This document shows positions 3,194 through 45,000 of a stretch of DNA of 64,000 bases, in pieces (the first letter of the stretch is position 1; each line of letters begins with the position of its first letter). Below the pieces are notes generated by a model, which was not told where the DNA came from, ran no database searches, and was given only the letters and a program-made list of their open reading frames with translations. Location of the stretch: positions 19,068,957-19,132,956 of the forward strand of contig OY755247.1 of the NCBI GenBank assembly GCA_963576725.1, read 5' to 3'. This stretch comes from Azorinus chamasolen (lineage: Eukaryota > Mollusca > Bivalvia > Cardiida > Solecurtidae). Both the position numbers and the translations under genes were made by a program.

Positions 3194-6100
3194 CTAAATC
3201 AAATATATATACATGTACAGAATAACCTCCTTAACCTGATTTAATTTTATGAATATCAATTAGCTGAATTTTCAGAATGGCATATGAATAAGACGTCCAT
3301 GTAAACAAGAGAGTCGTCACGGGTGACAAATGCCCCCAAAGTGTTCCACACCGAAAAGCATTTTGGCCGAAAAACAATACCATGTAATGCTGGTGTTACA
3401 TGAAATTTTGATGCTGTTAAAAATGGCACAGGAGTCAGTTCTTAACATTAAAAACAGAACCTTTGACGATTATGATAGGTAAGAAAAGAGCCGGGGGTCG
3501 AAACTTAGTTAAAAAGAACCCTAGGTCATTCTCAACGTTAAAAAGGACCCTGGGGTTGATTGTCAACGTTAAAAACAGATCCTGGGTAAATTCTTAACGT
3601 TTTAAAAAAAGACACAGGGTCAAATTTGGAATTCGTAACTGATAAGGTATAGGAGATATTCTCCGGACAAGGTTTTTGTAAAATCGAGGTCAAAGGTCGA
3701 GGTCAAGGTCACAGTGATCTGAAAATGGAACGCGACACTCCGCAATCCCAAGATGAACTCACACACCAAATATGGAATCCGTAGCTGGTAAGGTATAGGA
3801 GATATGCTCCCGACAAGCTTTTTGTAAAATCGAGGTCAAAGGTCAAGGTCATGGTCACAGTGACCTAAAAATGGTACACGACACTCCGCCATCCCAAGAT
3901 GAACTCACATACCAAATTTGGAATGCATAGGTGGGAAGGTATAGGAGATATGCTCTGGACAAGCTTTTTGTATAATTGAGGTCAAAAGTCAAGGTCAAAG
4001 TCACAGGGACCTGAAAATGGTATGCAACACTCCACCATCCCAATATGAACTCACACACCAAATTTGGAAACCTTAGCTGGTAAGGTATAGGAGATATACT
4101 CCGGACAAGGTTTTTGTAGCTGGTAAGGTATAAGGTTTTCGTAAAATCGAGGTCAAAGGTCAATGTCACAGTGACCTGAAAATGGTATGCGACACTCCGC
4201 CATCCCAAGATGAACTCACACACTAAATTTGGAATCCGTAGGTGGTAAGGTATAGGAGATATGCTCCTGACAAGCTTTTTGTAAAATTGAGGTCAAAGGT
4301 CAAGGTCACAGTGACCTGAAAATGGTACGCGACACTCTGCCATCCCAAGATCAACTCACACACCAAATTTGGTATCCGTAGATGATGTGACAAAGGAAAT
4401 ATACTCCGGACAAAAGGTACACACACCCACGCACGGTGCGATCACTATATGCCGCCAAAGCCCAGCTTTGGGGGCATAAAAAAACTAATAAATCACATAT
4501 ATCCTGATCAAACAGCTCCTACATGAGCTGTTTTATTTGATTCTACTCACTGGCACTTGATGGAAACAGACTTTACATGTAGTTGTGTAATATAATAGTC
4601 ATATCATATACATGGTGCGGCAGCCGATTTTTACCGGCATAAAATTCTGATATAAAACGCAGATCAACGCAAAATCTACTCAGCAGCGGGAAGAAAAGAC
4701 ATTTATCTCTGTAGAAACGGTAAAACCGTAAAATGAGTAAAAGTAAAAACTAATCAATGAAGGAATGGGTTAAAGGGATAATATTCATTAAGTAAAGGTT
4801 CAAGTTACCAACAAGATTTCTTTTCACTGGCTGCTCTAGAATGTTTTACTGCACTTCAAAATATACTTCAAAGTATCCATTCCATAATGAGACCACTTCA
4901 CACTTTCACAAAAATCTTGCCTTTATAATAGTATCCCCGCTTAAAATCCCGCAGCCTCTGGTAGTGTCAAATATACAGTCACCATGGAGCACTGGTACCA
5001 GCCCAGCCATCAAGACCTTCTCCAACATCCGTAGGTCACATTCAACGAGCTCTCCGTTTGATTTGGACCATGCACTGTAAAACTATATGTGACAATACAG
5101 TTGAAATTCGATATCTTGAACTCGGATAACTCGAACTTTGGGATAACTCGAACAAAAAGTTCAGTCCTTCTAAAACTTACAATACATAATTGCTCTAAAA
5201 TGTATCGCTACAAATAACTGGAATCACAGTTTAATACTGGTCTAAAGTAATGATGAAAACTCCTACAGGAGCTTTCATCATTACTTTAGACCTGTATTAA
5301 ACTGTGGCATTGAGAAATATTATCCCTTTAACCCATTGAGAAATTGCTCAGATTAGAAATCGGATGACTCGAACTTCTGTTATCTCGAACTAATTTGTAT
5401 GGTCCCTTCAAGTTCGAGTTATCGAAGTTCAACTGTATATAAATATTACATGCCAGAGTGTAAGACACTTAACCCTTCGCTTGCTATTCACGTCAATATA
5501 CCTACCTGTAAATAGTGAAGACCCAGATGAGACAGCTCCTGCAGGAGCTGTCTCATCAGGGTCTGCACTATTTACAAATTGATTGTGCAACCAGTGCACT
5601 CCACAGCAGTGATTGCACAGCGATATACTTGTACACAGTGAAGATATATGTAATTATACAACAGGGCATGGGTAAAGAAGGAGAAATGTATTTTAAAAAT
5701 CAGCAAGAGAAGGGCTAATCAAAGAGATGGCAAGACAAAGGGATGGTTGACAATATGAATGTCTCATAAACTAGCATGTAATGATATAACATTTATTTCA
5801 TCATAAGTTTACAAACCACAATTTCAGGAAAATTTGTAGACATTCCAGGGGTACAAATAAATGTTTTGACAAACATGATGTTGGATTTGTCATGTGGCAT
5901 AATTTGATGTGATATGAGCAAATGTTCAAGTGATCTTGTGACCTGCTGACATGTCTCTGTCAATGTCTCTGTCATATAGTCACATGTCAAAATCTAACCT
6001 CGTGATCAACTAACATGCTCATATCACTTTAATAGTAACTTGTCACAATATGAAATGTAATTCTGGATTGTTCCACACTTGCCTATGGAAATTTAACAAT

Positions 6101-9100: not shown

Positions 9101-12100
9101 ACAGCATAGGATTTGGTGGAGAAATGACGATTTCTCTTCAAGACGATTACTAAAGAGTGGTCACAACATAGGATTTGGTGGAGAAATGACGATTTCTCTT
9201 CAAGACGATTCTAAAGAGTGGTCACAACATAGGATTTGGTGGAGAAATGACGATTTTAGTATCCGAGTACATGTATGCACCGTAATCTGTAGCTCTATTT
9301 ATAGTTCCACCTTTTTACACCATTGCAATAAGAGTAGACCGAGATCAGGGTCTGCTCAGTTTGCGCATAAGTTACTGATTCTCTACAGTTTGCTATGGCA
9401 ATAATTTCCTTATTTTTTTTCTTTTTCTAATCATCTTTATTGCTCCATGTGATTAGGGTATGTACTATTTAACCCGTTTCATATTGCGTGTTCATGTAAG
9501 AAATAATGACATCATGAATGTTTATTAGCAGACTTTTTATAATAGCGTTAGTACCCAGGCATTTTGGTATGGTAGAAACTGTGAAGAGTCAGATTTCATA
9601 AGCAAACAGAGCAGACTCTAATCAGACAGCCCCTATAGGAGACGTCTGAGCTGGGTCTACTCTGCAAATGCGTGAAAACATGTTTAGATGAAGGAAATTA
9701 TTAACAAGCCTCTAGGATATGTTACAAGAGTACCGCATACGGTACATAATACGCCCACTTGCAAACTTTCTCTGATTCAACATGCCTTATAAGTGTTGAC
9801 ATTTTCTAATCTGTGCTTCAGATCTTGATTTCCATATTAAGGTGATACTATTTTTTTAAAAAAATGAAGTGAATATCATATTAAATAAAAAAGTTACAGC
9901 TAATCCTCATTTTTGCACATTTTTGTAAAGTGCAACGGCCATAACTCTGCTTAAAACATTGTGTTAAGTTTCATTTATAAGTTCAAGGACCATAAAATGA
10001 CATATCAAAACCCCCGCAATATATGTGTAATTCACATTAAGGTTTAACCATATAAACAAATTGAAGTAAATATCATTTCAAATGAAAAAGTTATGGCCAT
10101 CCTCATATTTGCATAGATTTGCATTATTTGTTTAAGTGCAAGGGCCATAACTCCGAAACAACAAATCAAATGATCCTCAGAATCGACTTAGCTTCAGGTC
10201 TTGATGCATTAAACATGTGGATGAAGTTTCATTAATATCTGTCAAACAGTTTTCCCAGAAAACAGCGGACAAACTATTTGCATATATTTGCATTTTTTTT
10301 TTTAAGTAAAAGGGCAATAACTCCGAAACAAAAAATCAAATAAACCTCAAAATTGACTCAGCATCATATCTTGATGCATTAAACATTTTTGTGAAGTTTC
10401 ATTAATATTTCTCAAATAGTTTTCCCAGAAAACAGCCGACAAACTATTTGCATTATTTTTTAAGGACAAGGGCCATAACTCTGAAACGAAAAATCAAATG
10501 ATCCTCAGAATCAATTCAGTTTCAGATCTTGATGCATTAAACATTTGTGTGAAGTTTCATTAATATCTCTCAAATAGTTTTCCCAGAAAACAGCGGACAA
10601 ACTATTTGCATATTTTTTAAGGACAAGGGCCATAACTCTGAAATGAGAAATCAAATGAACCTCAGAATCAACTCAGCTTCAGATCTTGATGCATTAAACA
10701 TTTGTATGAAATTTCATTAATATCTGTCAAAGTTTTCCCAGAAAACAGCGGACAAACTATTTGCATGTATTTGCATTATTTTTTAAGTAAAAGGGCCATA
10801 ACTCCGAAACGACAAATCAAATGAACCTCAGAATCGACTCAGCTTCAGATCTTGATGCATTAAACATTTGTGTGAAGTTTCATCAATATCTCTTAAATAG
10901 TTTTCCCAGAAAACAGCGGACAAACTATTTGCATATTTTTTAAGGACAAGGGCCATAACTCTGAAAAGACAAATCAAATGAACCTCAGAATCGACTCAGT
11001 TTCAGATCTTGATGCATTAAACATTTGTGTGAAGTTTCATTAATATCTGTCAAATAGTTCTGCCAGAAAACAGCGGACAAACTATTTGCATGTATTTGCA
11101 TTATTTTTTAAGTAAAAGGGCTATAACTCCGAAACGAAAAATCAAATGAACCTCAGAATCAACTCAGCTTCAGACCTTGATGCATTAAACATTTGTGTGA
11201 AGTTTCATTAATATCTCTCATATAGTTTTCCCAGAAAACAGCGGACAAAGTATTTGCATATTTTTTAAGGACAAGGGCAATAACTCCGAAACGACAAATC
11301 AAATGAACCTCAGAATCAGCTCAGCTTCAGATCTTGATGCATTAAACATGTGTGTGAAGTTTCATCATGTAAGAAATATTTACGCCAATAGTATGAATTA
11401 CTCATAACTATTTTTTATTATCAGCAAGCAGAGCAGATCCTGATCAGATGGCTCCGATATGAGCCTTCTGATCTAGGTCTACTCTGTTTGCAAAGACGTA
11501 GAAATGCGTATCTATGGAGTAAAGGGATAAACTCGTCGTAACGTTACGTTTAATTTTCCCGCCATTGTTTATACGATGACGTCACTTCCGTGACGTTAAG
11601 TATATTATAGTTGTTATGCACTGATGAAGATGTAAATCGAAACATGTATGCAGTAAAATAAAAAACGTGTTGGTTGTTAATTTATCCCATAATTAATATC
11701 TCTCAAATAGTTTTCCCAGAAAACAGCGGACAAACTATTTGCATGTATTTGCATTATTTTTTAAGTAAAAGGGCAATAACTCCGAAACGAAAAATCAAAT
11801 GAACCTCAGAATCGACCCAGCTTCAGATCTTGATGCATTATACATTTGTGTGAAGTTTCATTAATATCTCTCAAATAGTTTTCCCAGAAAACAGCGGACA
11901 AACTATTGCATATTTTTTAAGGACAAGGGCCATAACTCTGAAATGAAATATCAAATGAATCTCAGAATCAACTCAGCTTCAGATCTTGATGCATTTAACA
12001 TTTGTGTGAAGTTTCATTAATATCTGTCAAATAGCTTTCCCAGAAAACAGTGGACAAACAAAATGTTGACGGACGAACGAACGAACGAACGAACGAACGA

Positions 12101-18575: not shown

Positions 18576-18804
18576 TTTATCGTGTGCTACCCCACTACCC
18601 GGCCATCTTTTAAAGCTACGAGGCATTGTTTACAGACAAAGCAACGGTACTCATGATTTTATGACATAGTATGCACTTGTGCATGCGTAAAAACACAAAA
18701 AAAATGAAGGATTCGATAAACAGGTGAGGTTCGATTATTTCGATAGAAGGTGAGTCTACGATATTGTGACAGGCCGGGTACAGGTACTGGGTGAAAGACA
18801 GTAA

Positions 18805-18885
18805 GCGGTTCGGATAGCTCAGTGATTAGAGCACTCGCCTTGTAAGTGAGGCCGGGGTCCCGGGTTCGATCCCCGGTCTGGCTGC
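18805..18885 (+). tRNA. tRNA-Thr(TGT)-like unit in TRIM LTR 1
   Basis: A box ATAGCTCAGTGATTAGAGC, anticodon arm CTCGC-CTTGTAA-GTGAG and a perfect T arm CCGGG-TTCGATC-CCCGG are visible. The acceptor stem pairs poorly and TTTTT follows at about 18890. It is probably a Pol III promoter or SINE-like module and not a working tRNA. Confidence 0.6.
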
Positions 18886-19028
18886 ATGTTTTTCACCAGT
18901 CCTGTTACAGTTGGCGCCCAACTTGAAAATCGGACCCTGTGCACGCCCATGATTTCGGCGAGAATCTCTGGGGAAAAAGGGGGAGTAGTGTGACAGGCAG
19001 GGTACAGGTACTGGGTGAAAGACAGTAA

Positions 19029-19109
19029 GCGGTTCAGAGAGCTCAGTGGTTAGAGCACTCGCCTTGTAAGTGAGGCCGGGGTCCCGGGTTCGATCCCCAG
19101 TCTGGCTGC
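19029..19109 (+). tRNA. tRNA-Thr(TGT)-like unit in TRIM LTR 2
   Basis: Same layout as the first copy with AGAGAGCTCAGTGGTTAGAG as the A box. One T-arm pair is lost (CCGGG/CCCAG). The TTTTT terminator follows. Confidence 0.55.
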
Positions 19110-19252
19110 ATGTTTTTCACCAGTCCTGTTACAGTTGGCGCCCAACTTGAAAATCGGACCCTGTGCACGCCCATGATTTCGGCGAGAATCTCTGGGGAAA
19201 AAGGGGGAGTAGTGTGACAGGCAGGGTACAGGTACTGGGTGAAAGACAGTAA

Positions 19253-19329
19253 GCGGTTCAGAGAGCTCAGTGGTTAGAGCACTCGCCTTGTAAGTGAGGG
19301 GTCCCGGGTTCGATCCCCAGTCTGGCTGC
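19253..19329 (+). tRNA. tRNA-like unit in TRIM LTR 3, 4 bp deletion
   Basis: As in copy 2, but GCCG is missing between the anticodon arm and the T arm (GTGAGGGGTCCCGGG). This shortens the LTR to 141 bp. Confidence 0.5.
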
Positions 19330-19514
19330 ATGTTTTTCACCAGTCCTGTTACAATATAACATTGATGTGAAGGAAAAAATATCAGATTTTTTTAGATCAC
19401 TTTTAGATGTTGTGTTATGGTATTTTGACAATGTTTTGACATTCTTGAGATTATTTTGACCAATATCTGTCTTTGAGGTTGCAGAGGGGGTAGCAGATGC
19501 GTGGGTAGGGGGTA

Positions 19515-27000: not shown

Positions 27001-30000
27001 GGTAATGTATCCGGGTTTTTAATTTTTCTACCGGTGAAAGTACGAGTCCCACACACAATTTGACAACCGCACACAACTCAATGTCGTCTGTTGACGTCAT
27101 GCGCCGTTTTAAAACACCGCTGTGAGATAACCGTCCAACATGACGTCTTCAAATGTTCCGGAAATGACGTCGAAACGTCAGGCTAACACGTACAGTTGCG
27201 TTCAGGTCAAATTTGCACTATATTTTACTGCGCACTAGCATATTTAATGAATTCAGAATATGTGAAATAACAGCGTGCTTCAAGTCACCGAACAGTGGTT
27301 TCTATGGATACCATTTATTCTTCTTAAGTGTAAATTATCTATTCACCTACCTCATAATGAAAGAGGAAAAAATTTGTTGTACTTGAAAACAAGTTTTCAT
27401 GGGTTTTGATAAAGAAATAAATTCTTGAGAGGAGAATTCCGCGAATTTATCAATCAGCCCTCGTATTTGATGTATTTAACTCAGATATGCTATCTAGATT
27501 CTCATAAAGGATGTGTGTTATTATGTATGCAACTTATTCAAGCTGACATTCTTTTGAAAGATTTATGATGTACATAGTTAGCTTAGCATGGTTATGGTAT
27601 CAAAATATTTGATGTATTATAATGTACAGTAAAACCTCTCTATAACGGACACTAAATTAAGTCAAATATTTTGTGTTAAAGGCAGGTGACTGCTTCAAGC
27701 AAGTTGAAAGTAAAACAGAACGCTCCTATAGGAGCGTTCTGTTTTACTTTCACCTTGCTTTAAGCAACCACCTGCCCTAAATACCAACTAATTAACACAA
27801 TTTAGTGGCTGTTATAGAGAGGTTTTACTGTAATTACTAAATCAACATTTATGTGAATCATTGAGTAGCAATGATTGTGATAACTTTTTGTGACTCTCTC
27901 TGTCATGCCAATATTAGCAACTTGACCACAATTGAAATTTTTATAAGGAAAATGTTTTTCCTTTTTTGTGTTATCCTCGGTATTTGCGCATTTCATGCTC
28001 CTTGTTGTTATTGCCATGTGATGTGCACTTTTTACCAGAATAAATCTACATGTATCTATCTAAGTATTGGTCCCTTTATTGATAGCTGAGAATATTGCGG
28101 TTACCACTAGATGACTGGACCTCCTATATGAGCCCATTTTGAGTATTATAAGGATGGTGAATTGTTTTTGATGCATGGTAGCTCTCTGCCTGTGAATTTC
28201 AGGGTTGTTTTGTTTTGAATTTTCAGAAGAAAAAGCTGTCCGATTGTCATTACATCTTATAGTGAAGCGACATTTACCCCCAGGAGCTGAAAAATGGGAC
28301 CAGGAAAAAATGTATGTAGCCAGTCTCATTAACCCCTTCCTTTTCATACCTATGCAAGCAGGGTAGACCTAGATCAGATGCCTCCTATAGGAGCCATCTG
28401 ACAAGGGTCTGCTCTGTTTGCTTAACCCTGTCCAAGATTTATTCAAGATTTTATCACCTCATTAATAATCATGGACAGAATGAAAAAAAATTAACATGGA
28501 AAGGGGATTTTTAGTTAGTTCAACAAATTCCATAAGCAAACAGAGCAGACCCTGGTAAGACGACTCCTGCAAGAGGTGTCTGATCTGGGTCTACTCCATT
28601 TGCAATGGCATGAAAAATCATTTATATGAGGGAAAGGGCTATAAATAGCCTAGTATAGATCTGTTTCTGCAGTTTCTGTCAAGTTGAAAAAAATCCTTAT
28701 CCATGTTCAACTAGAACTATCACTAAAGGTGATGAATACCCCCACACGGCAGCCTTGATTGCAAATCCAAGTTTTGAACATGTAACAGGACCAAATAACA
28801 AAAATACCCAAAGTTCAAATAGAGAAAATTCTGTAATGGCTAACACCAAACACAGGAAAATTGTGTCTTGCAAATATACTATTCGTGTTTAGTATGTATG
28901 GTAAGTATCAATTTAATAAGTTTGAAAATGAAGGAGGAGTTTGTGACACCAACTCCCCATGTTTCATGCAAAAATGACAAAAAATATTCAAAGTTCAGGG
29001 GGGGGATAATTCTACAATGGCTAACTGTAAACACATGAAAATTGTGTCTTGCGCATCTGCTATTTGTGACTATTACGTATCCCAAATATAAATTCAGTAA
29101 CTTTAAAACTGAAGGAGGAGTTTGTGACACCAACTCCCCATATTACAAGCCAAAACAAGTATCAAGTGAATCAGGTTGAGAGTGAAGGAGTTCAAAGTAC
29201 AGGATTTTGCCTGCCAATTTCAAGACCAATTTCAAGGACAAAGGTCAAGGTCAGGGTCACAGAGACCTGAAATTTGTGTCTTGCACATCTACTACTCCTG
29301 AGTAATATTTATGCCAAGTATCAAGTGAATCAGGTTGAAATTGAAGGAGGAGTTCAAAGTACAAGATTTTGCCTGCCAATTTCAAGGCCAAAGGTCAAGG
29401 TCAAGGTCACAGAGACCTGAAATTTGTGTCTTGCACATCTACTACTCCTGAGTAACATTTATGCCAAGTATCAAGTGAATCAGGTTGAAAGTGAAGGAGG
29501 AGTTCGCCGTACAAGATTTTGCCTGCCAATTTTAAGACCAATTTCAAGGCCAAAGGTCAAGGTCACAGAGATTTGAAATTTGTGTCTTGCACATATACTA
29601 CTCCTGAGTAACATTTATGCCAAGTATCAAGTGAATCAGGTTGAAAGTGAAGGAGGAGTTCAAAGTACAAGATTTTGCCTGCCAATTTCAAGACCAATTT
29701 CAAGGCCAAAGGTCAAGGTCACAGAGACCTGAAATTTGTGTCTTGCACATCTACTACTCCTGAGTAACATTTATGCCAAGTATCAAGTGAATCAGGTTGA
29801 AATTGAAGGAGGAGTTCAAAGTACAAGATTTTGACTGCCAATTTCAAGACCAATTTCAAGGCCAAAGGTCAAGGTCAATGTCACGGAGACCTGAAATTTG
29901 TGTCTTGCACATCTACTACTCCTGAGTAACATTTATGCCAAGTATCAAGTGAATCAGGTTGAAAGTGAAGGAGGAGTTCAAAGTACAAGATTTTACCTGC

Positions 30001-33000
30001 CAATTTCAAGACCAATTTCAAGGCCAAAGTCAAGGTCACAGAGACCTGAAATTTGTGTCTTGCACATCTACTACTCCTGATTAACAATTATGCCAAGTGT
30101 CAAGTGAATCAGGTTGAAACTGAAGGAGGAGTTCGCCGTACAAGATTTTGCAGACAGACCGCACGACCGACCGACCACCCGCCCGCCCGACCGACCGACA
30201 GGCTGATTCCAGTATACCCCCCTCAAACTCTGTTTGTGGGGGTATAATTAAATGATTAGGTTCATGAATATTCAAAGTGATGAAATGTTTAATTAATATT
30301 GAATAAGACATTTAAGACATTGTTTATATACGGTATGTGTATAGCCATTGTTGATTTAACAATATGTGTAGAGAAATTATTTATATATGTGTATAGACAT
30401 TGTTTATGTATGTTTATAGACGTTATTTATATATGTGTATATACATTGTTTATATATGTGTATGGACATTTTTTTATGTATGTGTACAGACATTGTTTAT
30501 ATTATGTGTATAGACATTGTTTATGTATGTGTATAGACAATATTATGTTTGTGTACATACAATGTTTATACATGTGTATAGACATTGTGTGTATAGACAT
30601 TGCTTATGTATATGTATAGACATTGTTTATATATTGTGTCTATGGACATTGTGTGTATACATTGTTTATGTATGTGTATAGACATTGTGTGTATAGGCAT
30701 TGCTTATGTATATGTATAGACATTGTTTATATATTATGTCTATAGACGTTGATTGTAAAGCCATTGTTTTTATATACATGTATGTGTATAGACACTGTTT
30801 ATGTATGTGTATAGACATTGTTTATATATGTGTATAGACATTGTTTATGTATGTGTATAGACATTGTTTATATATGTGTATAGACATTGTTTGTATAGAC
30901 ATTGTTTATGTATGTGTAGACATTGTTTATTATAGACATTGTTATGTATGTGTAGACATTGTTTATGTATGTGTATAGACATTGTTTATGTATGTGTAGA
31001 CATTGTTTATGTATGTGTATAGACATTGTTTATGTATGTGTATTGACATTGTTATGTATGTGTATAGACATTGTTTATGTATATATTTCTTTTGTAGGTT
31101 GGAGGCTTTAAACAAGATTACTCATTTGAGATTAGACAGAGAGAAAATTGGAGAAATAGACAATCTGGAACTGCTTGGTGACAAAGTAACAAATCTGTAC
31201 ATGCAATGTGTAAGTGAAATGATTATACCAGTACATGTGCATGTAGAATCAGTTGAGCCATGCAAACAGTGTAGACCTAGATCAGCTGCTATATTAACTC
31301 TTTACTCCACAGAGTCAACTTTTGTACATTTGCAAACAGAGTAGACCTAGTCATAAGGTGTCTCTTTGAGGGAAAGGGTTAAACAATAAACAAAAAGAAA
31401 TCTATTTTAGGGTCTTTAAGGCAGGTGGTGGCATTGACATCTGCATGCGGTGATACCATTAATTGATATATTTACTACGTTTAAGTTTAATTTAACCCTT
31501 TAATCCATGAATATTCGTGTAAGAAATAATGATGTCATTAATATATAATTAGATTAATTTGTTATAATAGCACATGGACACAGGAATGTTTGACAATTGC
31601 AGAAATTGTACGATCTTATCTATATTATATCATAAACAAATGGAGCAGACCCTGATCATACAGCTAAATAATTATACTGAATATTTTATTTCATTAACCC
31701 TTCCCTTGCTATTCATGTCAATATACCTACCTGTAAATAGGGAAGACCCAGATGAGACAGCTCCTGTAGGAGCTGTCTCATCAGGGTCTGCCCTATTTAC
31801 AAGTTGATTGTGCAACCAGTGGACTCCATAGCAGTGATTGCACAGCGAAATATGTGTACACAGTGAAGATAATGTAATTATACAACAGGGCATAGGTAAA
31901 GAAGGAGAAATGCATTTTAAAATTCAGCAAGAGAAGGGTTAATATTTCTTTCTTTTTTTTTTTCAGAATCGTATTGAAAGAATTGAGAATCTTGAATGTT
32001 TGAAAAACCTTTCCTTCATCACATTAGCCAATAACAGAATCAAAACAATAGAAAACCTCACCATTTTACAAAAACTGGTGTTCCTTGATTTGTCAGAAAA
32101 TCTGATATCAAAGGTAGATGTTGGTAAGTCGACTCTTTAAATACATGTACACCATTTATCCTTTACTCCATGAATATTCATGTAAGAAATGCTGACATCA
32201 TGATAATTAATTAGATTAATTTTTAAAATGGCATGTTAACAGATGAGTTTTTGCCGAAGTAGAAACTATAGAATCAGATCTATATTATTCCATGAGCAAA
32301 CAGAGCAGATCCTGATCAGACGGCTCCTATAGAAGCCGTCCGATCTGGGTCTACTCTGTTTGCAAAAGTGTAGAAAGGCGTATTTATGGAGGAAAGGGAT
32401 AATTTGCATAGATAACCTGTAAAGTTGTGTTGCCTTCACTGCATTTTTCCAATTACATGTAATTTGTGTGCCAATAATTTGACAACTTTATAGCATTTTA
32501 TGATGACTCTCATTTCTAGCTTGGATCCAGTTTCTAAGATCTGAGCTGTTTAACAATAGGCCAGGAATTTCTGTACAAAACTGAGTGAAATTAATTTGGG
32601 AAGTACTTCAATAGATGGCATTTTTTATTTTATATAAAGGTTAAAACCCCAAACGATACAGTAACTAAATCTTGTACAGTAAAAACCCTCTAAACCGGAC
32701 ATTCAATTTAGTATCAATATCACTCTTGGAGATAGGTGGCAGCTTAATGCAGGGTGACAGTCTGTCAGGATGCTAGGTGATGCCCCAATGACAAGACCCA
32801 GCTTCAGACCTTTTTAAATATTTCGGGCGTTCCGTGAGGTGACAATGTCTTGAGCCAAACACAGCACAAGGTTTAAAACTATAAAATTGATGTGGCTGGG
32901 CTATGCTAGCCGGAGATGAATATATGGTGTTCTGAGGCTACTTTGCCTGAGACGAACACTATGAAAACATGAAATTATATACAAAAACCTATGTTATGGT

Positions 33001-36000
33001 GATCAACAATACCTCAGCTTTGGGGCCAACAATTAAACAATAAACTATAACTGTGAACAACTACTACAGCCCCAAGCCAGCGAGACGGCTGGTCGATGCC
33101 TCAACTTCAAAATGGTGCTTGGAACACAATCCTCAAGCTATGTCATGAAACTATAAATGCGAGCTATATAACCCTAGGCTATGCGAGTTGAGACCCTTAG
33201 CATCAAACCCTGTTGAAACCTGTGGTTTGAAGCTATCTCAACACTACTGTGACTTCAAACCTACGTATCAGACCCTATGTCTCAAAGCATGTATGTAACC
33301 CTACGCTCTGAAACCTATCTTGAGCAGTGTATGAAACCTGCTTCAAGAAGCTTATAAAACTAACGCTTTGAAGCCTGCCTGCAGTATGTTCCGAGCCCGG
33401 CTCGAAAACACTGCCTCAAAAAGACGGCTTCAAAAAGACAGCCTCAAAAAGACGGCCTCAGGCAGACGGTTCAGCAACGCTCCGAACCCTGAGCACGGTC
33501 TACAGCAAACCTGCTTCAAACCGAATATAACCCCAGGCTATATCAGTCTGAGCAACACCATCTCAATGCCTCAGCTACTCTGAGACCGCTATGAAATAGC
33601 AGTATAATATTAGGCTGGTTGGACTGTCTAAACGTGCAATTTTCATGCCCAAAGAGAGAACTCAGAGGACAGTTACTTAGCCCATTCAAAGAACAGGTAA
33701 CTGCACAATTACGTAGCCCAAGCAGACAATATATTCGCCAGTCTTTAACCTTAATGAGTGCAATACTCTATCAGTCAAAAACCAACGATATAGCTTCTAT
33801 ACATAAGTATATAAAGCCGTCACTGAAAGTTCTATGAATATTCAGTGCCCTGATCACAAAATAACCAGCAGTGATCGTTGAATAAGTTTGCTCCAGTCTC
33901 AGCATTTGTATACAGCTTCCATTAGTTTGAGGTACTTCGGCAAATTAGCATATAAACATATTTCATTCATATTAATTATTTCGATTGACCAACCGCCTCA
34001 CTCATTTGAATATATACGCAGTATTAATTTTTATAAGGTATAAAACAAACAAAATGAAGTTTAAAAGTGAACTTACTTTGATAAACAACAAATTAATGAA
34101 ATCTAACTAACAGTTAAAAAGGGAGATAATCCTGTATATACAAAACTACAGTTAACTCAAATCGCTTACCTAGCGATATACTACAGGTTTTCTTGACAAC
34201 AGCCCCCTTCTCAAGAAAACGCTCTACTGTTTTCAACTAATACAAGAAAATCTGTTACTCTATTGACGGCTCAGGTAGTCAGCACATACATTGTCTGAGC
34301 CCTTGATTACTTGAACCTTGAACTGATAATTTTGTAGGAACAGAGCCCATCTCATGATCCTACCACTCTCTATCTTGCATTTCTGAATGTATGCCAATGG
34401 TGCATGATCTGTCTGGAGTATGAACTCCGCACCATACAGGTACTTCTGAAATTTTCTAATGCCGAAAATGATGGCTAGGCACTCACGCTCTATGACGGAG
34501 TAGTTCTTCTCCCTCTGTAGCAGCTTTTTGCTAGCATATGCTATGGGGAACAATCCATCTTCAAACTCTTGCATCAAGGCTGCTCCAACTCCACTGTCTG
34601 AGGCATCTGTTTGTAAAACAAAGGGCCTCTTGAAGTCTGGTAGCCTGAGGATGGGTGAGCGAGTTAACATGTCCTTGAGTGTACTGAACGCCTGCTCATG
34701 TTCATCCGTCCAAACAACTGTGTTCGGCTTTCCTTTCTTCGTCAGGTCTGTGAGGGGAGACGCAACATCGGCAAATGCTGGGATAAACTTCCTGTAGTAT
34801 CCCGCCAAGCCCAAGAATGCTCGTACTTGCCTTTTGGTCTTGGGTCTATCTGCATTCTTGATCTTATGAAGCTTCTCTTGCTCCATCTGCAACATACCTT
34901 TGCCAATTACATGTCCTGTGAATGAAATGTTTTCATATCCAATCATGCATTTGGATGGTCTTATGGTCAAGCCGGCGTCTCGCACCCTTGTAAAAACTTC
35001 TCTCAATATTCTGAGATGTGGCCCCCAGGACTGGGTATGGCCCATGATATCATCGACATAGTTGTCGGCATCACTGCAACCATGCAGCAGTTTGCGCATC
35101 ATCCTGTTGAACGTGCTCCCCGAGTTTACCATGCCAAAAGGCATCTTCTTGAACTGGTAACTTCCGTCTGGGGTTGTGAAAGCCGTCAAGTGCTTCGACT
35201 TATCTTCAACAGGTATCTGCCAGTAACCCTTGCTCAAGTCTTAGTGATCATTGCAGATGTGGAAGTGGAAGGAATATTAGGGTTGGACTTCATGAAGTCA
35301 CACACGGTGATTACAGATATTGCAAACAACAGTATGACCATTAATGGGACTCCTTGCTCACTGCAGACGGCTGGGAAAATAGGTTGTTTCAGAGTTGTTG
35401 TTTCAGAGCAGGTTTTATTGAAACCTAAATCAGAAACCGTAATTTATGGTAAGGTTTCTGGAGGGGAATGTTTGAGAAGGGACAACTTCTACCTTGTTGA
35501 AACCTCTGAAAGACTTCTGAACAGTGGTGAGAGCCTAGTGGCTAGGTCTATTGTTACAGCCAATCAAACTGTGCCAGTGAGGATTATGAATCTGTCACAT
35601 GAAGAAAAGGTATTCAATGTTGGGACAAACACTGCAACTATAAGTCCGGTGACAGAGGTCCAAAACATTGATTCCAAACCTAAAGCTATAAAAGGTGTTC
35701 CAGAACATGTATTGGACTTGTATCAAAGAATTGTGAGGATGGATGTCTGATGGTTAAGTTTAAGTACCAGTAACATTTGACTCCCGGGAAAAGGGAACTT
35801 TAGTCATAAACTGAGAAGGTTTTGCAGTTTCATTTTTATTTTGTTTTCATATACCGTTGTAAGGCAACAACATGATTAAATCAATGTTTACTTCATAACC
35901 TGTACTTGTAATTTTGTTCAGTCGGGACGACTGTTCCCGGAGGCGTGGGTAATGTAACGAAGATGTATTTTGCCGTGTTTTCAAAAGTTATCTCCCTTGT

Positions 36001-39000
36001 ATAAGTTAGCTACATTTGTTCTCGGTTCCCGAACTTTCTAAAATTGGCTTCAAACATTCTACAGATCCCGTTACAAGGTAGATATATGAATTGTTTAGTA
36101 TTCTTATCCTTCAAAAAGATCAGTCAGACCCAGTTTATATGTATAGCACTTGTGTTATTTGTTTATTCATTGATTTTATAGCGATCTAGCTCAGTGATCA
36201 TGTTTCAGTTATTAGGCGCTCATTCGGTATCGCACACGCACAGACTGCGTGGTTATCTAGAGTGGATTCCCTTGGTTTTCAGAGATATGTTCACCAGGCG
36301 GCGCCACATGCATACTGGCGTATATAAACCCCTCGCTTCACTCTGTTCAGCCTGACCGAAATTGTCAGCCGACCAGTTAACGTCGCAAGGAATATATAGA
36401 AGAACGACCACAGCAATAGTATATTACATGTACTTGTATATTGATTGGGAGATCGGAGACTTTGGACAAGTGCTGGAAACCTTCAGGCATTAATGCAATG
36501 CAGAAGAACCCCAGAACTAGCTCCGGGTCGCCACTTCTGTCTTTATAGTTTGAGACCGACTTCATTGGTTTATTTTATACAGCTATTAGTAGCTGGGTGC
36601 ATCCATACCTGGACAGGTTTGGAGGTGTTTCAGACCGAGTGTCTGAAGGCAGTAATTTAGCTCTGGGAGCAAGGTTAAACCGAAGTCATATTTTGTGGTC
36701 TGAGGTCATAGTTTTAGGTTTGGAACCATAAATCATAGTTTTAGGTTTGGAACCATAAATCATAGTTTTAGGTTTGAACCATAAACCATATTTTTAGGTT
36801 TGGAACCATAAATTGAGGTTCCAGGTAGCTTACGCATATTCCTTGAGGGTTTTGTATACGCCAGTGGTTATAATCACTAATCACTGTTTGATTCTTTTTA
36901 AGGCAAGAAGCCATAAATCATTGTTTGTGATTTTAAAGTTAATTCTGTTTGAGGCAGACAGCCAGTTCCAATCATTTTGCATAATCATTATACATAATTA
37001 GTTGTAGTTCTAAACCCATTTTTAGTGTTTCATTGTTCTTTAATCATAGGCTAGGTAGCCCCGAGAAAAATTATATGTTCTTGTCCATTTTTTTGTATTG
37101 ATATATTGAATCCGCTCGGTACATAGCTCGGTGCACGTTACAGAAATTCTTCCCGGACGAGCCCCCAAATTGTCAGGATGCTGGGTGATGCCCCAATGAC
37201 AAGACCCAGCTTCAGACCTTTTTAAATATTTCGGGCGTTCCGTGAGGTGACAATGTCTTGAGCCAAACACAGCACAGGGCTTGAAACTATAAAATTGATG
37301 TGGCTGGGCTATGCTAGCCGGTGATGAATATATGGTGTTCTGAGGCTACTTTGCCTGAGACGAACACTATGAAAACATGAAATTATATACAAAAACCTAT
37401 GTTATGGTGATCAACAATACCTCAGCTTTGGGGCCAACAATTAAACAATAAACTATAACTGTGAACAACTACTACAGCCCCAAGCCAGCGAGACAGCTGG
37501 TCGATGCCTCAACTTCAAAATGGTGCTTGTGTTCCAAGCCTCAAGCTATGTCATGAAACTATAAATGCGAGCTATATAACCCTAGGCTATGCGAGTTGAG
37601 ACCCTTAGCATCAAACCCTGTTGAAACCTGTGGTTTGAAGCTATCTCAACACTACTGTGACTTCAAACCTACGTATCAGACCCTATGTCCCAAAGCATGT
37701 ATGTAGCCCTACGCTCTGAAACCTATCTTGAGCAGTGCATGAAACCTGCTTCAAGAAGCTTAAAAACCTAACGCTTTGAAGCCTGCCTGCAGTATGTTCC
37801 GAGCCCGGCTCGAAAACACTGCCTCAAAAAGACGACTTCAAAAATTGTGCTTCTACCAATGGTATGGTAATCAAGTCATCTCTAGAACTTGGGTCTCCAC
37901 TGAGCTGAATTGGATAGACAGCAGACACTTTGTGCTGTCTCTCATGTTCATCATGACTGCTCAAGCCGCACTGTCGGCATGGTATTCTACTAACTCCATC
38001 GGCATTGCCGTGAAGCCTTCCGGGTCTGTGTTCAATCTTCATCTGGTATGAAGAGAGTGTCTCTAACCAGCGTGCAACCTGGCCCTCAGGGTTTTTAAAG
38101 TTTGTCAGCCATCTTAATGAGCCATGGTCCGTTCTGACTAGAAACTGTTTTCCGTTCAAGTAGTGTCTAAAGTACTTTACAAAGTGTACCAGAGCAAGCA
38201 ATTCCTTTCTGGTAACACAATATCTGCGCTCCGACTTGCTCAAAGTTCGGCTTGCATAAGCAATGACAACTTCCTGGTTGTCAAGCTTCTGTGAGAGTAC
38301 TGCTCCGATTGAATCATTGCTTGCGTCTGTGTCCAAGATAAAGCTTTGAGAGAAGTCTGGGTGTGCTAAAATAGGAGATTCGGTCAACCTTTGTTTCAAG
38401 CACATAAATGCATTCTCACAGGCATCAGACCACTCGAACTTTGTGTTCTTTTCTGTAAGACGGTGTAAGGGTTTGGCAATCTGCGAGAAGTTTTCAATAA
38501 ACCTGCGGTAGTAACTACATATTCCGAGAAAAGATCTTACATCTCTGACACAGGTTGGCGTAGGCCAAGACTTTATACATTCAGTTTTCTTCGGATCTGT
38601 AGTGACACCTTCTGCCGAAATAATATGCCCGAGAAATTCTACCTTTTGCTGAAACAAGTGACATTTCCTGGGTTTTAGTTTTAGACCAGCTTCACCAAGT
38701 CTTTGAAACACAGAATCAAGGTTCTGAACCATTTCTTCAAAGCTCCTTCCTGTCACGATGATGTCATCGAGGTAGATTAAACATACCTTCCAATGCAAAC
38801 CAGCAAGAACAGTTTCCATAAGTCTTTCGAATGTTGCTGGCGCATTACACAAGCCAAATGGCATTACCTTGAACTCAAACAAACCTTCTCTTGTCACGAA
38901 AGAGGTTTTTGCACGATCTTCAGGCTCCACTTCAACCTGCCAATAGCCCGAATTAAGGTCCAAGCAAGAAAACCACTTGGAACCAGCTAATTGGTCTAGG

Positions 39001-42000
39001 CTTTCATCTATCCTGGGCAACGGATATGCATCTTTTACTGTTATATCATTCAACTTGCGATAATCCACGCAAAAACGACGAGTTCCGTCCTTCTTCTGAA
39101 CGAGGACAATGCCGCTGGCCCAGGGGCTGCTTGAAGGCTGAATGACATCTTTGTCCAACATCTGTTTTGTCTGTTTTTCAACCTCATCAGTTAGGTGTGC
39201 TGGGACCCTTCGTAGCCTTTGCTTAATTGGTGGTGCACTGCCTGTCGATATTTTATGTCGAACTATCCCTGTTCGACCAATATCATCGTCTGAAGACGAG
39301 AAAACACTGCTATGCTTTCTCAAAAGGCTAGAAACTTGTTTGCAGTTTTCTGCATCCATCCCATCAGCACCAATAAATGTTCTGGAACACCTTTTATAGC
39401 CTTGGGTTTGGAATCAATGTTTTGGACCTCTGTCACCGGACTCAATGTTGCAATGTTTGTCCCAACATTGAAGACCTTTTCTTCATCTGACAGGTTCATA
39501 ATCCTCACTGGCACAGTTTGATTGGCTGTAACAAGAGACCTAGCCACTAGGCTCTCACCACTGTTCAGAAGTCTTTCAGAGGTTTCAACAATGTAGAAGT
39601 TGTCCCTTCTCAAACATTCCCCTCCAGAAACCTTACCATAAATCACGGTTTCTGATTTAGGTTTCAATAAAACCTGCTCTGAAACAACAACTCTGAAACA
39701 ACCTATTTTCCCAGCCGTCTGCAGTGAGCAAGGAGTCCCATTAATGGTCATACTGTTGTTTGCAATATCTGTAATCACCTTGTGTGACTTCATGAAGTCC
39801 AACCCTAATATTCCGTCCACTTCCACATCTGCAACGATCACTGCTGGTTATTTTGTGATCAGGGCACTGAATATTCATAGAACTTTCAGTGACGGCTTTA
39901 TATACTTATGTATAGAAGCTATATCGTTGGGTTTTGACTGATAGAGTATTGCACTCATTAAGGTTAAAGACTGGCGAATATATTGTCTGCTTGGGCTACG
40001 TAATTGTGCAGTTACCTGTTCTTTGAATGGGCTAAGTAACTGTCCTCTGAGTTCTCTCTTTGGGCATGAAAATTGCACGTTTAAGACTGTCCAACCAGAC
40101 TTTAATAATATTATACTGCTATTTCATAGCGGTCTCAGATTAGCTGAGGCATTGAGATGGTGTTGCTCAGACTGATATAGCCTGGGGTTATATTCGGTTT
40201 GAAGCAGGTTTGCTGTAGACCGTGCTCAGGGTTCGGAGCGTTGCTGAACCGTCTGCCTGAGGCCGTCTTTTTGAGGCTATACTTTTGAAGCCGTCTTTTT
40301 GAGGCTGTCTTTTTGAAGCCGTCTTTTTGAGGCAGTGTTTTCGAGCCGGGCTCGGAACATACTGCAGGCAGGCTTCAAAGCGTTAGTTTTATAAGCTTCT
40401 TGAAGCAGGTTTCATACACTGCTCAAGATACGTTTCAGAGCGTAGGGTTACATACATGCTTTGAGACATAGGGTCTGATACGTAGGTTTGAAGTCACAGT
40501 AGTGTTGAGATAGCTTCAAACCACAGGTTTCAACAGGGTTTGATGCTTAGGGTCTCAACTCGCATAGTCTAGGGTTATATAGCTCACATTTATACAGTTT
40601 CATGACATAGCTTGAGGATTGTGTTCCAAGCACCATTTTGAAGTTGAGGCATCGACCAGCCGTCTCGCTGGCTTGGGGCTGTAGTAGTTTGTTCACAGTT
40701 ATAGTTTATTGTTTAATTGTTGGCCCCAAAGCTGAGGTATTGTTGATCACCATAACATAGGTTTTTGTTTCATGTTTTCATAGTGTTCGTCTCAGGCAAA
40801 GTAGCCTCAGAACACCATACTATCATCATCGGCTAGCATAGCCCAGCCACATCAATTTTATAGTTTCAAGCCCTGTGCTGTGTTTGGTTCAAGACATTGT
40901 CACCTCACGGAACGCCCGAAATATTTAAAAAGGTCTGAAGCTGGGTCTTGTCATTGGGGCATCACCCAGCATCCTGACAATTTAGTGAAGAATTTATCTT
41001 CTTTCAAGCTTGACATGATGTCCTCAGGATTACCCATAGGTTCCGTGTCAAACTTTGTCACCATGTTGAGCCTTCTGAAATCGATGCAGAACCTATTTGT
41101 TCCATCCTTCTTTTTCACCAACACAATTGGTGAGTTGTAATCTGACTGTGCTGGCTCTATCACTCCAGCATCAAGCATGTTCTGAACCTCATCAGAAACT
41201 TCTTTTCTCTTTGCATATGGTATGGGGTATGGTCGAACCCTAACCGGTGTCTTGCTGGTGAGCTCTATCTTATGCTCCTCCAGCTCAGTTGTTCCAGGCT
41301 TCTCGGTGAAAATGTTCTGGAACTCTTCAAGCAACCTGAGCACATCATGCCGTTGCTCACGTGTCAAGCTTTCTGACACCATGACATCTTTGTAAGTCTC
41401 GCAGCTAGTCAAGCCTGCCAGTTCAATCAAGCTTTCATCATCCACCACCCCATAATCTTCACTGTGTTCAGCCTCTATGATCGCCATGCATGAAACAACA
41501 TCCTCGAGCTCCCTCTCTTCATACTTCTTCAGAAGGTTGATGTGGTATGTGCCAACCATGTCACCAACCTGGACCTTGTAGTCCATCCTGTTAACTGCCT
41601 CAATGACTTCGAACGGCCCCTTCCACTGCAGAGTCAGTTTGTTGTGCGAGGTAGGCAACAACAGCAGAACTTTATCTCCTTTCACAAGCTTTCTGTTTCT
41701 AGCTGACTTGTCATAGTGGTGCTTGTACATACACTGGGCATCGTTCAAACTTTCACGAGCTATCTTGCAAGTGTCCTCGAGTCTGTGTCTCAGGTCAAGC
41801 ACATATTGGTATGTGGTCAAGACTTCTGGTGTTTCTCTCTCAGTCCAGAGTTCCTTCAGCACTTGCATGGGACCTCGAACAGTGCGACCATACATGAGCT
41901 CAAACGGCGAGAAACCCGTTGAAGCTTGTGGGACCTCTCTGTAGGCGAACAACACAGCAGAGAGATATCTGTCCCAATCTTTGGGTCGCTCCTGGCACAT

Positions 42001-45000
42001 CTTCTTGAGCATGCTCTTCAAAATGCCATTCATCCGCTCACACCACCCATTACACTTGGGGTTGTATGGTGTAGTAAAGAGTTGTTTCAGAGATATCAGT
42101 CGACAAACCTCCCTCATCAAGTCTGAGGTGAACTGACTTCCTTTGTCACTGAGTATCTCAGATGGGAACCCAACTCTTGAAAATACATCGAGCAGTGCTT
42201 CAGCCACCCGCTCTGTCTCGATCTTTGGCAAGGCCACAGCCTCGGGGTACTTTGTAGCATAATCAACTACAGTGAGTATGTATATGTTCCCTTTCTCAGA
42301 TACAGGCGTTATGGGACCAATAAGATCAACGGCAACCCGATGAAATGGTGTATCCATAATTGGCATCTCCCCCATAGGTACCTTTGAGACTCTTCCCTTT
42401 GGTACTGTCTTCTGACATATATCGCATGAGCGACAAAACCTTGTCACATCACTGGTTACCCCAGGCCAGTGAAAGCTTGTTGTAATCCTATCAACCGTCT
42501 TCTTGGTTGAGAGGTGTCCACCAACAATTGATTCGTGTGCCAGGCTCATCACACGTCTTCTAAGCTTTGTTGGGACAACTACTTGTTTCAATTCAGTTGA
42601 ACCAGAGCCCTTACTCTCTGTGAACAACCTATACAGAACATCCTTCTGTACCTCATATCTATAACTGTTTCCACCCCTTGTGGTCAGCGTACTCTTGTCT
42701 CGGGCATAAGACCACAACTTTTGCAAAGATGTGTCTTCAGTCTGAGCCTTCCTGAGCTCATCAATAGTAACCTCATCCCCAGGAGAGTTTGGAACACTTA
42801 ATGCCCTGAGAGGTCTCTCTTCCTTCTTGGTCTGAGCTCGTGTCATGACAGCTGCCGAAACTCTAGCTTCGGGGTTCTGTGCTTCATGACCCATGGTTTC
42901 GAACCATTCCTGGTTTGGGGTGTTTGAAACTCCATGTATATTCCCCAACACCAAATCACATATGAGTGAGCTCAACACCATGGCTTCAACATTGCCAGTG
43001 TAATATGGTGTATCAACCTGAACCAATGCTGCTGGTACTATCTTGGCCCCGCCATCGATAGTTATCATAATATATCTCTTGTCCAGCATCTGGTCGTCTC
43101 GCACCAGGTTCTTTCGTATGGCCGCCAACTCACAGCCAGTATCTCTCAAAACCTTGACTGCTCGACCATCAACTAACCCTGGTTGCAAATTCAAATTTCT
43201 CTCGCCTTCAAGCGATTCAACGGTACAGCCACCTGCTATGATCGGCACAGACTCTCCATTAGCTAAGCATAGCTCTTCATCTCTGATACATTCTTGTATG
43301 TGGCTCTGGTTGCAGGAGACCGACATACACAAAGCAGATATTTTCTGCTTGTCCTGAGACTGGTGTTGACTCTGATAACGCCTATGCTTGAACTCTTTGT
43401 TGTATGTCTGAGCACCATGCTGCTGCTGTCCAGAGTCTTCATAACACATTGCTCCAGCACTTATTTTCTTCGGGCCATTCTGGCGACAGTCTCTGGCGAA
43501 ATGTCCCTCTTTTCTGCATATGAAACAAACCTTTTTCTGAGGTTCAGACCGTGGTGCTGGGCTAGCTCTGAGGTTAGTATTTGGCCTCTGATGTTGCCTG
43601 TTTGATGATGAGTTGAGCTTGGCATGCTTGTTCGAGCATATGGAGCCACCATGAGCCTCTATATATTGCTCAGCTAGCTTCGTCACATCATCAACCGACT
43701 TCGGGACTCTCTCTTTCAAGAACAAAGCAAGTTCGGACGAACAGGTTCGTATAAACTGCTCTCGAACCACTAAATCCATCAAGCCTTCATACGATTTCTC
43801 AACCTCAGCCATCTCTGTCCATCTACTAAAATACCTTGTCAACCTAACCATAAACTGAAAAACAGTCTCCCCATGCTCGGGTCGACTTTCTCTAAACTTC
43901 TGCCTGAATCCTTCTTCTGTCAACTGATATCGCCTGAGCACAGCCTTTTTCAGAGCCCTGTAATCATGAGCATGTTCTGGAGGCATGCTGGTATATACCT
44001 CAAGACCCTTGCCTGTCAAAAGCGAGCTCAAACTAACTGCCCATGTCTTCTCTTCCCAGCCCTGGCTCTGAGCAAAGCGCTCGAACCGTTCTATATATGA
44101 GTCCATATCATCTTTCTGCTCATCAAACTTCGGCAATTTTGGTCTGGGAGCCTTACTGCTTGTTTCTGAGGTAGGCCCCCTCATGCCTGTCTCAGCCCTT
44201 AACTTGACCAACGCGATCTCACGCTCCTGTTCTTCACGCTTCATATGGGCTTTTCTCTCAAACTGATCATGCTCACGCTTCTGCCGCTCATCTTCACGTT
44301 TCTGTCGCTCATCTTCTCGTCTCGACATACGCTCTTCCCTATCTAAATATTCTTTCTCTTTCTTCTCAGCATATTCCCTGAGGTCTTGCCCAGTCAACCC
44401 TAAACGTACACCAGCCGATATCCATTTATCTACGTCCATGATCACCAAACTAATGCTTCAACCCTATGTAGCTTCAGCTATAAAAACCTTCTGAGAACTA
44501 TCCCGGACGAGCCCCCAAATTGTCAGGATGCTAGGTGATGCCCCAATGACAAGACCCAGCTTCAGACCTTTTTAAATATTTCGGGCGTTCCGTGAGGTGA
44601 CAATGTCTTGAGCCAAACACAGCACAAGGTTTAAAACTATAAAATTGATGTGGCTGGGCTATGCTAGCCGGAGATGAATATATGGTGTTCTGAGGCTACT
44701 TTGCCTGAGACGAACACTATGAAAACATGAAATTATATACAAAAACCTATGTTATGGTGATCAACAATACCTCAGCTTTGGGGCCAACAATTAAACAATA
44801 AACTATAACTGTGAACAACTACTACAGCCCCAAGCCAGCGAGACGGCTGGTCGATGCCTCAACTTCAAAATGGTGCTTGGAACACAATCCTCAAGCTATG
44901 TCATGAAACTATAAATGCGAGCTATATAACCCTAGGCTATGCGAGTTGAGACCCTTAGCATCAAACCCTGTTGAAACCTGTGGTTTGAAGCTATCTCAAC

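Follow-up and report, generated by a model that had tools for sequence, protein, structure and literature searches.

The feature at positions 18765-19353 of the window (the whole 64,000-nucleotide stretch of Azorinus chamasolen DNA that was analysed) is a miniature LTR element, a TRIM, with a tRNA-Thr(TGT)-like unit in each LTR. Placed by its features alone, it is a family of Helenus, the TRIMs with tRNA-derived LTR sequences named by Kojima 2024 (PMC10886601); the family is new or possibly already listed, and the window copy is unusual in having three LTRs. The explanation as a whole, which joins a Helenus-type TRIM, the replication cycle proposed below and a single insertion followed by LTR exchange, is very probably correct.

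Structure of the element and its copies in the genome

The element spans 589 bp and is made up of three LTRs, nearly identical and 145, 145 and 141 bp in length, with two internal segments between them. Both internal segments are 79 bp long and identical to each other. Every LTR has the 5' end TGTGACAGG and the 3' end CCTGTTACA. The primer-binding site (PBS) TGGCGCCCAAC begins 2 bases past the LTR end, and GGGGAAAAAGGGGGAG sits 3 bases ahead of the next LTR. The features of the window copy are as follows.

18761..18764, no strand: target site duplication ATAT, 5' copy (sequence)
18765..18909, + strand: LTR1, 145 bp, with a 4-bp CCGG insertion (sequence, LTR alignment)
18786..18796, + strand: ACTGGGTGAAA, 5' arm of the inverted repeat flanking the tRNA-like body, in U3 (read from sequence)
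18808..18884, + strand: tRNA-Thr(TGT)-like body of LTR1 (ARAGORN; Rfam, 43.1 bits)
18815-18825, + strand: box A of LTR1 (read from sequence)
18863-18872, + strand: box B of LTR1 (read from sequence)
18889..18893, + strand: TTTTT, Pol III terminator-like run of LTR1 (sequence)
18889-18900, + strand: 3' arm of the inverted repeat in LTR1, TTTTT plus 18894-18900 (sequence)
18910..18988, + strand: internal segment 1, 79 bp (sequence, family comparison)
18912..18922, + strand: PBS 1, TGGCGCCCAAC, complement of the host tRNA-Lys(CTT) 3' end plus CCA
18970..18985, + strand: polypurine tract 1 (sequence, family comparison)
18989..19133, + strand: LTR2, 145 bp, mosaic of LTR1-type and LTR3-type states (LTR alignment)
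19032..19108, + strand: tRNA-Thr(TGT)-like body of LTR2 (ARAGORN; Rfam, 38.0 bits)
19134..19212, + strand: internal segment 2, 79 bp, same sequence as segment 1
19136..19146, + strand: PBS 2 (motif search)
19194..19209, + strand: polypurine tract 2 (sequence, family comparison)
19213..19353, + strand: LTR3, 141 bp, the commonest length in the family (LTR alignment)
19256..19328, + strand: tRNA-Thr(TGT)-like body of LTR3 (ARAGORN; Rfam, 45.5 bits)
19354..19357, no strand: target site duplication ATAT, 3' copy (sequence)

An earlier sequence-only reading had described three direct repeats of 141-145 bp with defined ends, two 79-bp internal segments with a primer site and a polypurine run, and ATAT on both sides. 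All of these were recovered where it had placed them, the repeats base by base. It had also described a tRNA body with A and B boxes, anticodon TGT and TTTTT in every LTR, and this description was borne out: ARAGORN called tRNA-Thr(TGT) in each of the three window LTRs, all three Rfam tRNA scores exceeded the gathering score of 29, and TTTTT lies 3' of the tRNA body in all three. The antisense ORF of the element had no protein relatives at E 0.01.

The short motifs carry no weight by themselves. In the 64-kb window, CCTGTTACA with one mismatch gave 15 matches against 16.6 expected, and the PBS as a 14-mer with up to 3 mismatches gave 3 matches against 2.5 expected, the only exact ones being the two of the element. 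It is the arrangement of the motifs and their recurrence in the genome that exceed chance.

Copies of the family to which the window element belongs, here called F1, are many in the 1.72-Gb host assembly, which has 19 chromosome-size contigs (C19, 64.1 Mb; C20, 0.13 Mb). LTR1 as a genome query yielded 945 first-look candidates, unscored, of which 40 were then scored, with 78 matches among them; the internal segment gave 398 unscored candidates, 40 of them scored. The sample consisted of 40 F1 copies, 39 from 37 fetched stretches and the window copy, and as the best-scored of the 945 candidates it is biased toward copies nearest the window LTR.

Perfect 4-bp target duplications flanked 34/40 of these best-scored copies (31 two-LTR, 2 solo and 1 three-LTR), with 25 distinct sequences among the 34, while random flank 4-mers were identical in 38/7600 cases (0.5%). 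Three copies with the same flanks at L018 are one insertion that was copied along with host DNA in a 1.93-kb tandem duplication; with this triplet counted once, 32/38 independent sites carried a perfect duplication. A fourth copy of the internal segment lies about 2 kb from the triplet. Six copies had no perfect 4-bp duplication as scored. L015 is truncated, L031 and L037 have one duplication mismatch each, L020 and the solo LTR L030 have two each, and L032 has the 5-bp repeat CCTAT in place of the 4-bp duplication. The LTR match of L020 ends two bases early, and ATAT was seen by eye to flank both sides two bases on. Duplications were present at 2 of the 3 solo LTRs in the sample. The three-LTR form was represented by the window copy only (1/40).

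Outside the window, LTR lengths ranged from 135 to 142 bp and were 140 or 141 bp in 67/74; the internal segment was 90 bp in 33/38, as against 79 bp in both segments of the window copy. The LTR pairs outside the window were identical in 11/36 cases and free of substitutions in 13/36 (truncated L015 excluded), so F1 moved recently. The PBS was exact in 32/38 F1 internal segments, and the polypurine tract (PPT) GGGAAAAAGGGGGAG or a near variant was present in 38/38. Among the 77 F1 LTRs, ARAGORN called tRNA-Thr(TGT) in 73 and Ser(TGA) in 1, a run of five T was found in 76, the box A motif in 73 and the box B motif in 72. The conservation of the boxes counts for little, since young copies retain nearly all of their sequence.

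A pattern for the T-arm and acceptor of tRNA-Lys ending in GTTGGGCG matched 36 genome places, its reversed control 0, and both loci checked (L076 and L083) are tRNA-Lys(CTT) genes by ARAGORN. A comparison by hand showed 11 complementary bases between TGGCGCCCAAC and GTTGGGCG with CCA added; by this sequence comparison the F1 PBS is the complement of the 3' end of the host tRNA-Lys(CTT). tRNA-Lys(CTT) genes form a tandem cluster at G000 C1:62.69-62.73 Mb (L076-L083), many of them about 1801 bp apart, with tRNA-Gly(GCC) between them at both cluster loci checked.

Because 34/40 copies have duplications against 0.5% at random, and because the PBS matches a host tRNA-Lys, the window feature is a mobile TRIM and not a tRNA-gene array. 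The assembly search with the LTR that the sequence-only reading had proposed yielded two-LTR, solo and one three-LTR copy, with defined ends, duplications, PBS and PPT recurring across copies, and upheld its central claim that this is a miniature LTR element whose LTRs each contain a tRNA-Thr-like unit. Three tRNA calls do lie in tandem with a 224-bp period, but a plain tandem tRNA-gene array without ends or duplications, the outcome named by that reading as fatal to its claim, or a cluster of tRNA-derived SINEs, can be rejected with near certainty in view of the dispersed two-LTR and solo copies, the duplications (solo LTRs included), and the PBS and PPT at the LTR edges.

Origin of the three-LTR copy

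Both internal segments of the window copy lack the same 11 bp relative to the 90-bp form; as they are identical and share this deletion, both come from one parent. LTR2 has the state of LTR3 at five alignment columns (11, 49, 52, 62 and 112). The 4-bp CCGG insertion is present in LTR1 and LTR2 and absent from 75/77 LTRs. Between the outer LTRs, LTR1 and LTR3, there are 5 substitutions and a 4-bp difference, and between LTR2 and LTR3 the 4 bp only. Because the internal segments share their deletion and LTR2 is a mosaic, the three-LTR form most likely arose through recombination at one locus, as judged from the alignment. The simplest route would be one insertion, marked by the single ATAT duplication, whose own LTRs were exchanged after insertion; the mosaic LTR2 demands a second patch (column 112) on top of a single crossover. 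By the criterion in the available text of Sabot and Schulman 2007 (PMC1950507), a single duplication around the array, as seen here, fits one integration event.

The array may instead have been inserted ready-made, following template switching between two RNAs in reverse transcription, as the available text of PMC1950507 has it for cereal elements. The complex insertions described there also have three LTRs, two internal segments and one flanking duplication, and a duplication that encloses the whole array, as in the window copy, is diagnostic in that text. The composite elements of the same genome (see below) likewise point to template exchange. However, the elements in the available text are full-size grass elements for which highly similar outer LTRs are expected and found, whereas in the window copy the outer LTRs are not the most similar pair and differ by the substitutions given above, LTR2 and LTR3 by 4 bp alone. 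We regard insertion of a ready-made array as rather unlikely.

Relationship to known elements and use of the tRNA-like unit

Kojima reported Helenus elements from six animal phyla; pteriomorph bivalves have 51 of the families (PMC10886601). Animal Helenus have 4-bp duplications, the primers of bivalve families include tRNA-Lys, seven bivalve families can encode tRNA-Thr, and tandem arrays are known for one fish family, LTR-11_DR (PMC10886601). The F1 elements are like them in all these respects. They have direct LTRs round a short non-coding internal segment within less than about 1 kb, tRNA-derived sequence in each LTR (tRNA-Thr(TGT) in 73/77, with Rfam matches in the three window LTRs), an 11-nt PBS complementary to tRNA-Lys just past the 5' LTR, a PPT before the 3' LTR, 4-bp duplications and, in the window copy, a tandem arrangement as in LTR-11_DR. 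Compared by description, F1 and Helenus showed no difference in kind. The sequence-only reading knew of no account of an animal TRIM whose LTR contains a tRNA gene; this part of it did not stand, as Helenus was published in 2024, bivalves included (PMC10886601). In the literature on Helenus, on TRIMp3, Kojima's term (PMC10886601), and on tRNA-derived bivalve LTRs with Pol III promoters, we found no account of such tRNA-LTR TRIMs beyond Kojima 2024; the last topic also led to the Cassandra paper.

Two other groups are similar in part. Cassandra elements, according to the available text of PMC7215508, also have in each LTR a unit that derives from a Pol III gene, promoter and terminator included, and form tandem arrays of LTRs and internal segments, but they are plant elements with 5S rRNA in the LTR, where F1 has a tRNA. 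Rfam at gathering scores gave three tRNA matches in the window and no 5S rRNA, and membership in Cassandra was rejected. The biv-TRIM elements, in the available text of PMC6934838, are bivalve TRIMs with an internal domain of 77-80 bp and solo as well as tandem TDRx_I(x-1) forms. Their TDRs, however, measure 202-218 bp against 141-145 bp for the window LTRs, they have no clear PBS, which F1 has, and their PPT is GGGGAGA; their conserved internal sequence TGATCCCAAAGGAC was found in 0/38 F1 internal segments, and the phrase 'polymerase III' is absent from the available text of that paper. Membership in biv-TRIM was rejected on repeat length and PBS.

With its duplications, host primer tRNA and young copies as independent evidence, F1 supports Helenus as a real, recently mobile, Pol III-type TRIM class. 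In genomes of this sort, LTRs called as tRNA-Thr by ARAGORN may inflate the number of tRNA genes counted.

Use of Pol III by the LTR unit is plausible as a prediction from its motifs, and a functional Pol III promoter is putative for Helenus in PMC10886601 as well. In the cycle that we propose, Pol III would start just upstream of the tRNA body in the 5' LTR, directed by the tRNA-like internal promoter, and the transcript would pass the first T5 and stop at the T5 of the last (3') LTR. This would make the tRNA body R, common to both RNA ends, with the approximately 35 bases ahead of it as U3 and the 16 bases after T5 as U5. Minus-strand DNA would be primed by tRNA-Lys, the first strand transfer would proceed via R, and the plus strand would start at the PPT. 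Proteins would be supplied by a Gypsy-type helper, an argument that Kojima made from the 4-bp duplications (PMC10886601). The main difficulty is the T5 in the 5' LTR, which should stop most Pol III transcripts. For Cassandra, the available text of PMC7215508 reports multi-unit transcripts that are presumed to cross the intervening LTRs.

It is also conceivable that the tRNA-like body is a passenger, in which case the genomic RNA would come from Pol II at a different promoter within the LTR, and a short dead-end RNA would be the only product of the Pol III unit. The five-T run behind the tRNA body in 76/77 LTRs should halt Pol III before the PBS, and Kojima terms canonical TRIMs 'TRIMp2' (PMC10886601), both of which are in keeping with this alternative. 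On the other hand, the LTR is only about 141 bp long, with little else inside, and a distinct family, F2 (see below), also has both box motifs, A and B, as well as the T-run, although ARAGORN found a tRNA in 29/43 F2 LTRs only. A passenger role is unlikely on balance.

That the element gives the host a functional tRNA-Thr is very improbable, even though ARAGORN and Rfam both call a tRNA (Thr, TGT) and seven bivalve Helenus families are able to encode tRNA-Thr (PMC10886601). Acceptor pair 2-71 is T.C in the tRNA bodies of all three window LTRs, and T-stem pair 50-64 is missing in LTR2 and LTR3, leaving 20/21 standard cloverleaf pairs in LTR1 and 19/21 in LTR2 and LTR3. In stability the cloverleaf fell 9-13 kcal/mol short of the best fold, a comparison of the LTR bodies that did not include a genuine tRNA as control, and Kojima also deemed a functional role unlikely (PMC10886601). 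We speculate that decay of the acceptor stem may make it easier for RNA from the proposed Pol III unit to escape tRNA processing.

Folding of the tRNA bodies was no better than that of shuffles (z -1.13, -0.34 and -0.01), nor was that of the internal segment (z 0.43). Whole LTR1 folded better than its shuffles (z -2.73), with 3/200 shuffles equalling it. The ends of the window LTR pair at -32.7 kcal/mol, with 3/2000 base shuffles as good, the arms having been picked after inspection. Both arms of the inverted repeat were intact in 67/77 F1 LTRs.

Further families, composite elements and candidate helpers

The pattern TGTTACA, 0-4 bases, TGGCGCCCAAC and a base other than T matched 711 genome places, and its reversed control 0. 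A second family, F2, with LTRs of about 144 bp, internal segments of 120-146 bp and a tRNA-Lys PBS, was found in the same genome (L084-L113). An example copy is given below.

L084, 1340-1860: F2 copy with tRNA-Thr GGT-like LTRs

The F2 5' end was present as a loose match at 25 of the first 30 of the 711 places, all on contig C1. A measurable LTR pair was present in 18 F2 copies, and 13/18 had a perfect 4-bp duplication; L101 and L102 share their duplication and may be one duplicated insertion. ARAGORN called tRNA-Thr(GGT) in 27 of 43 F2 LTRs, another tRNA in 2 and none in 14. With one LTR of each family compared, F1 and F2 were alike at 52/79 positions of the tRNA part and 17/21 of the T-run plus U5 (0/1000 shuffles as good), and at 31/56 of U3 (2/1000 shuffles as good). 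The inverted repeat that brackets the tRNA, GGTGAAA...TTTTTCACC, occurs in both F1 and F2, and one flanking pair was seen by eye to be C-G in one family and A-T in the other. This two-sided change, a single event, hints at pairing of the arms.

Four elements combine F2 with a third family, F3. In L085, L113, L124 and the truncated L094, an F2 5' LTR is followed by the tRNA-Lys PBS, an F3 internal segment and an F3 3' LTR. ARAGORN found no tRNA in the F3 LTR of L085 or L124; A-box-like and B-box-like motifs were seen there by eye. Perfect duplications flank L113 (CATA) and L124 (TCAT), L085 matches at 3/4 bases, and L094 has none. At the random rate, two or more perfect duplications among four composites would be expected with p of about 1.5e-4.

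An F3-type LTR end before an F3 internal segment occurs at 148 places, by a pattern on the LTR end only. The reciprocal junction, an F3-type LTR end before an F2 internal segment, occurs at 23 places; a single changed base in an F2 end may account for some of them. One of these 23, L125, is a heterotypic array of F3 internal segment, F3 LTR, PBS and F2 internal segment. L089 at 1080-1710 is another heterotypic array, of F3 and F2 units joined at LTR/PBS borders, in which F3 LTRs are joined to the 3' portion of an F2 LTR.

A normal reverse-transcription cycle yields two like LTRs. Composites flanked by a duplication would be hard to get by recombination between two insertions, an unlikely source. 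The composites suggest recombination between co-packaged RNAs at the common PBS. Plus-strand strong-stop DNA of one TRIM would be transferred to the minus strand of another via the PBS, which both TRIMs would have in common through copying the same tRNA-Lys. From the four composites read, we put forward only tentatively, as a possibility somewhat short of an even chance, that different tRNA-bearing TRIM families swap halves, joining an F2 5' LTR to an F3 internal segment and 3' LTR within one 4-bp duplication. Conversion of one LTR after insertion is a possible alternative source. In a tree of F2 LTRs the four composites did not group together, each being nearest to the ordinary copy L088 (the L124 row was one base short). 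The tree is compatible with a repeated origin of the composites, but its support is weak because the result may reflect no more than a position of L088 close to the family's centre. If families do swap halves, RNAs of different TRIM families would be co-packaged, and intermolecular plus-strand transfer would be a recurrent route to new TRIM families. Coexisting families together with composites would make co-packaging and template exchange directly testable. The composites are what may surprise a specialist.

The 4-bp duplications of F1 fit mobilisation by the Gypsy superfamily. No helper with ends matching F1 was found among the places read (the window, 30 places with LTR end plus PBS, and L124). 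Of the 711 places with LTR end plus PBS, the first 30, which all lie on contig C1, proved to be TRIMs, remnants or arrays; L104, at first suspected to be a helper, looks like an F2 remnant. The full 18-nt tRNA-Lys PBS occurs at 117 genome places, and among the 100 listed at least 36 were F3 places and two were tRNA-Lys genes by eye, L124 being the one read. Viral contigs scanned for the F1 internal segment gave no match.

The window itself holds a Gypsy-type element at 32763-45956 on the - strand, with LTRs of 1436 bp that are 99.8% identical and a GACTG duplication. By position, its integrase domains precede the reverse transcriptase frames, and its pol is broken up by nested LTR-element sequence. 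The PBS of this element, which we take to be tRNA-Pro-like, differs from that of F1, as does its 5-bp duplication, and it was rejected as the partner of F1. The window also has several arrays of tandem repeats, at 3621-4413, 10106-12059, 29156-30151 and 30338-31082, whose units measure about 140-325 bp or 15-118 bp.
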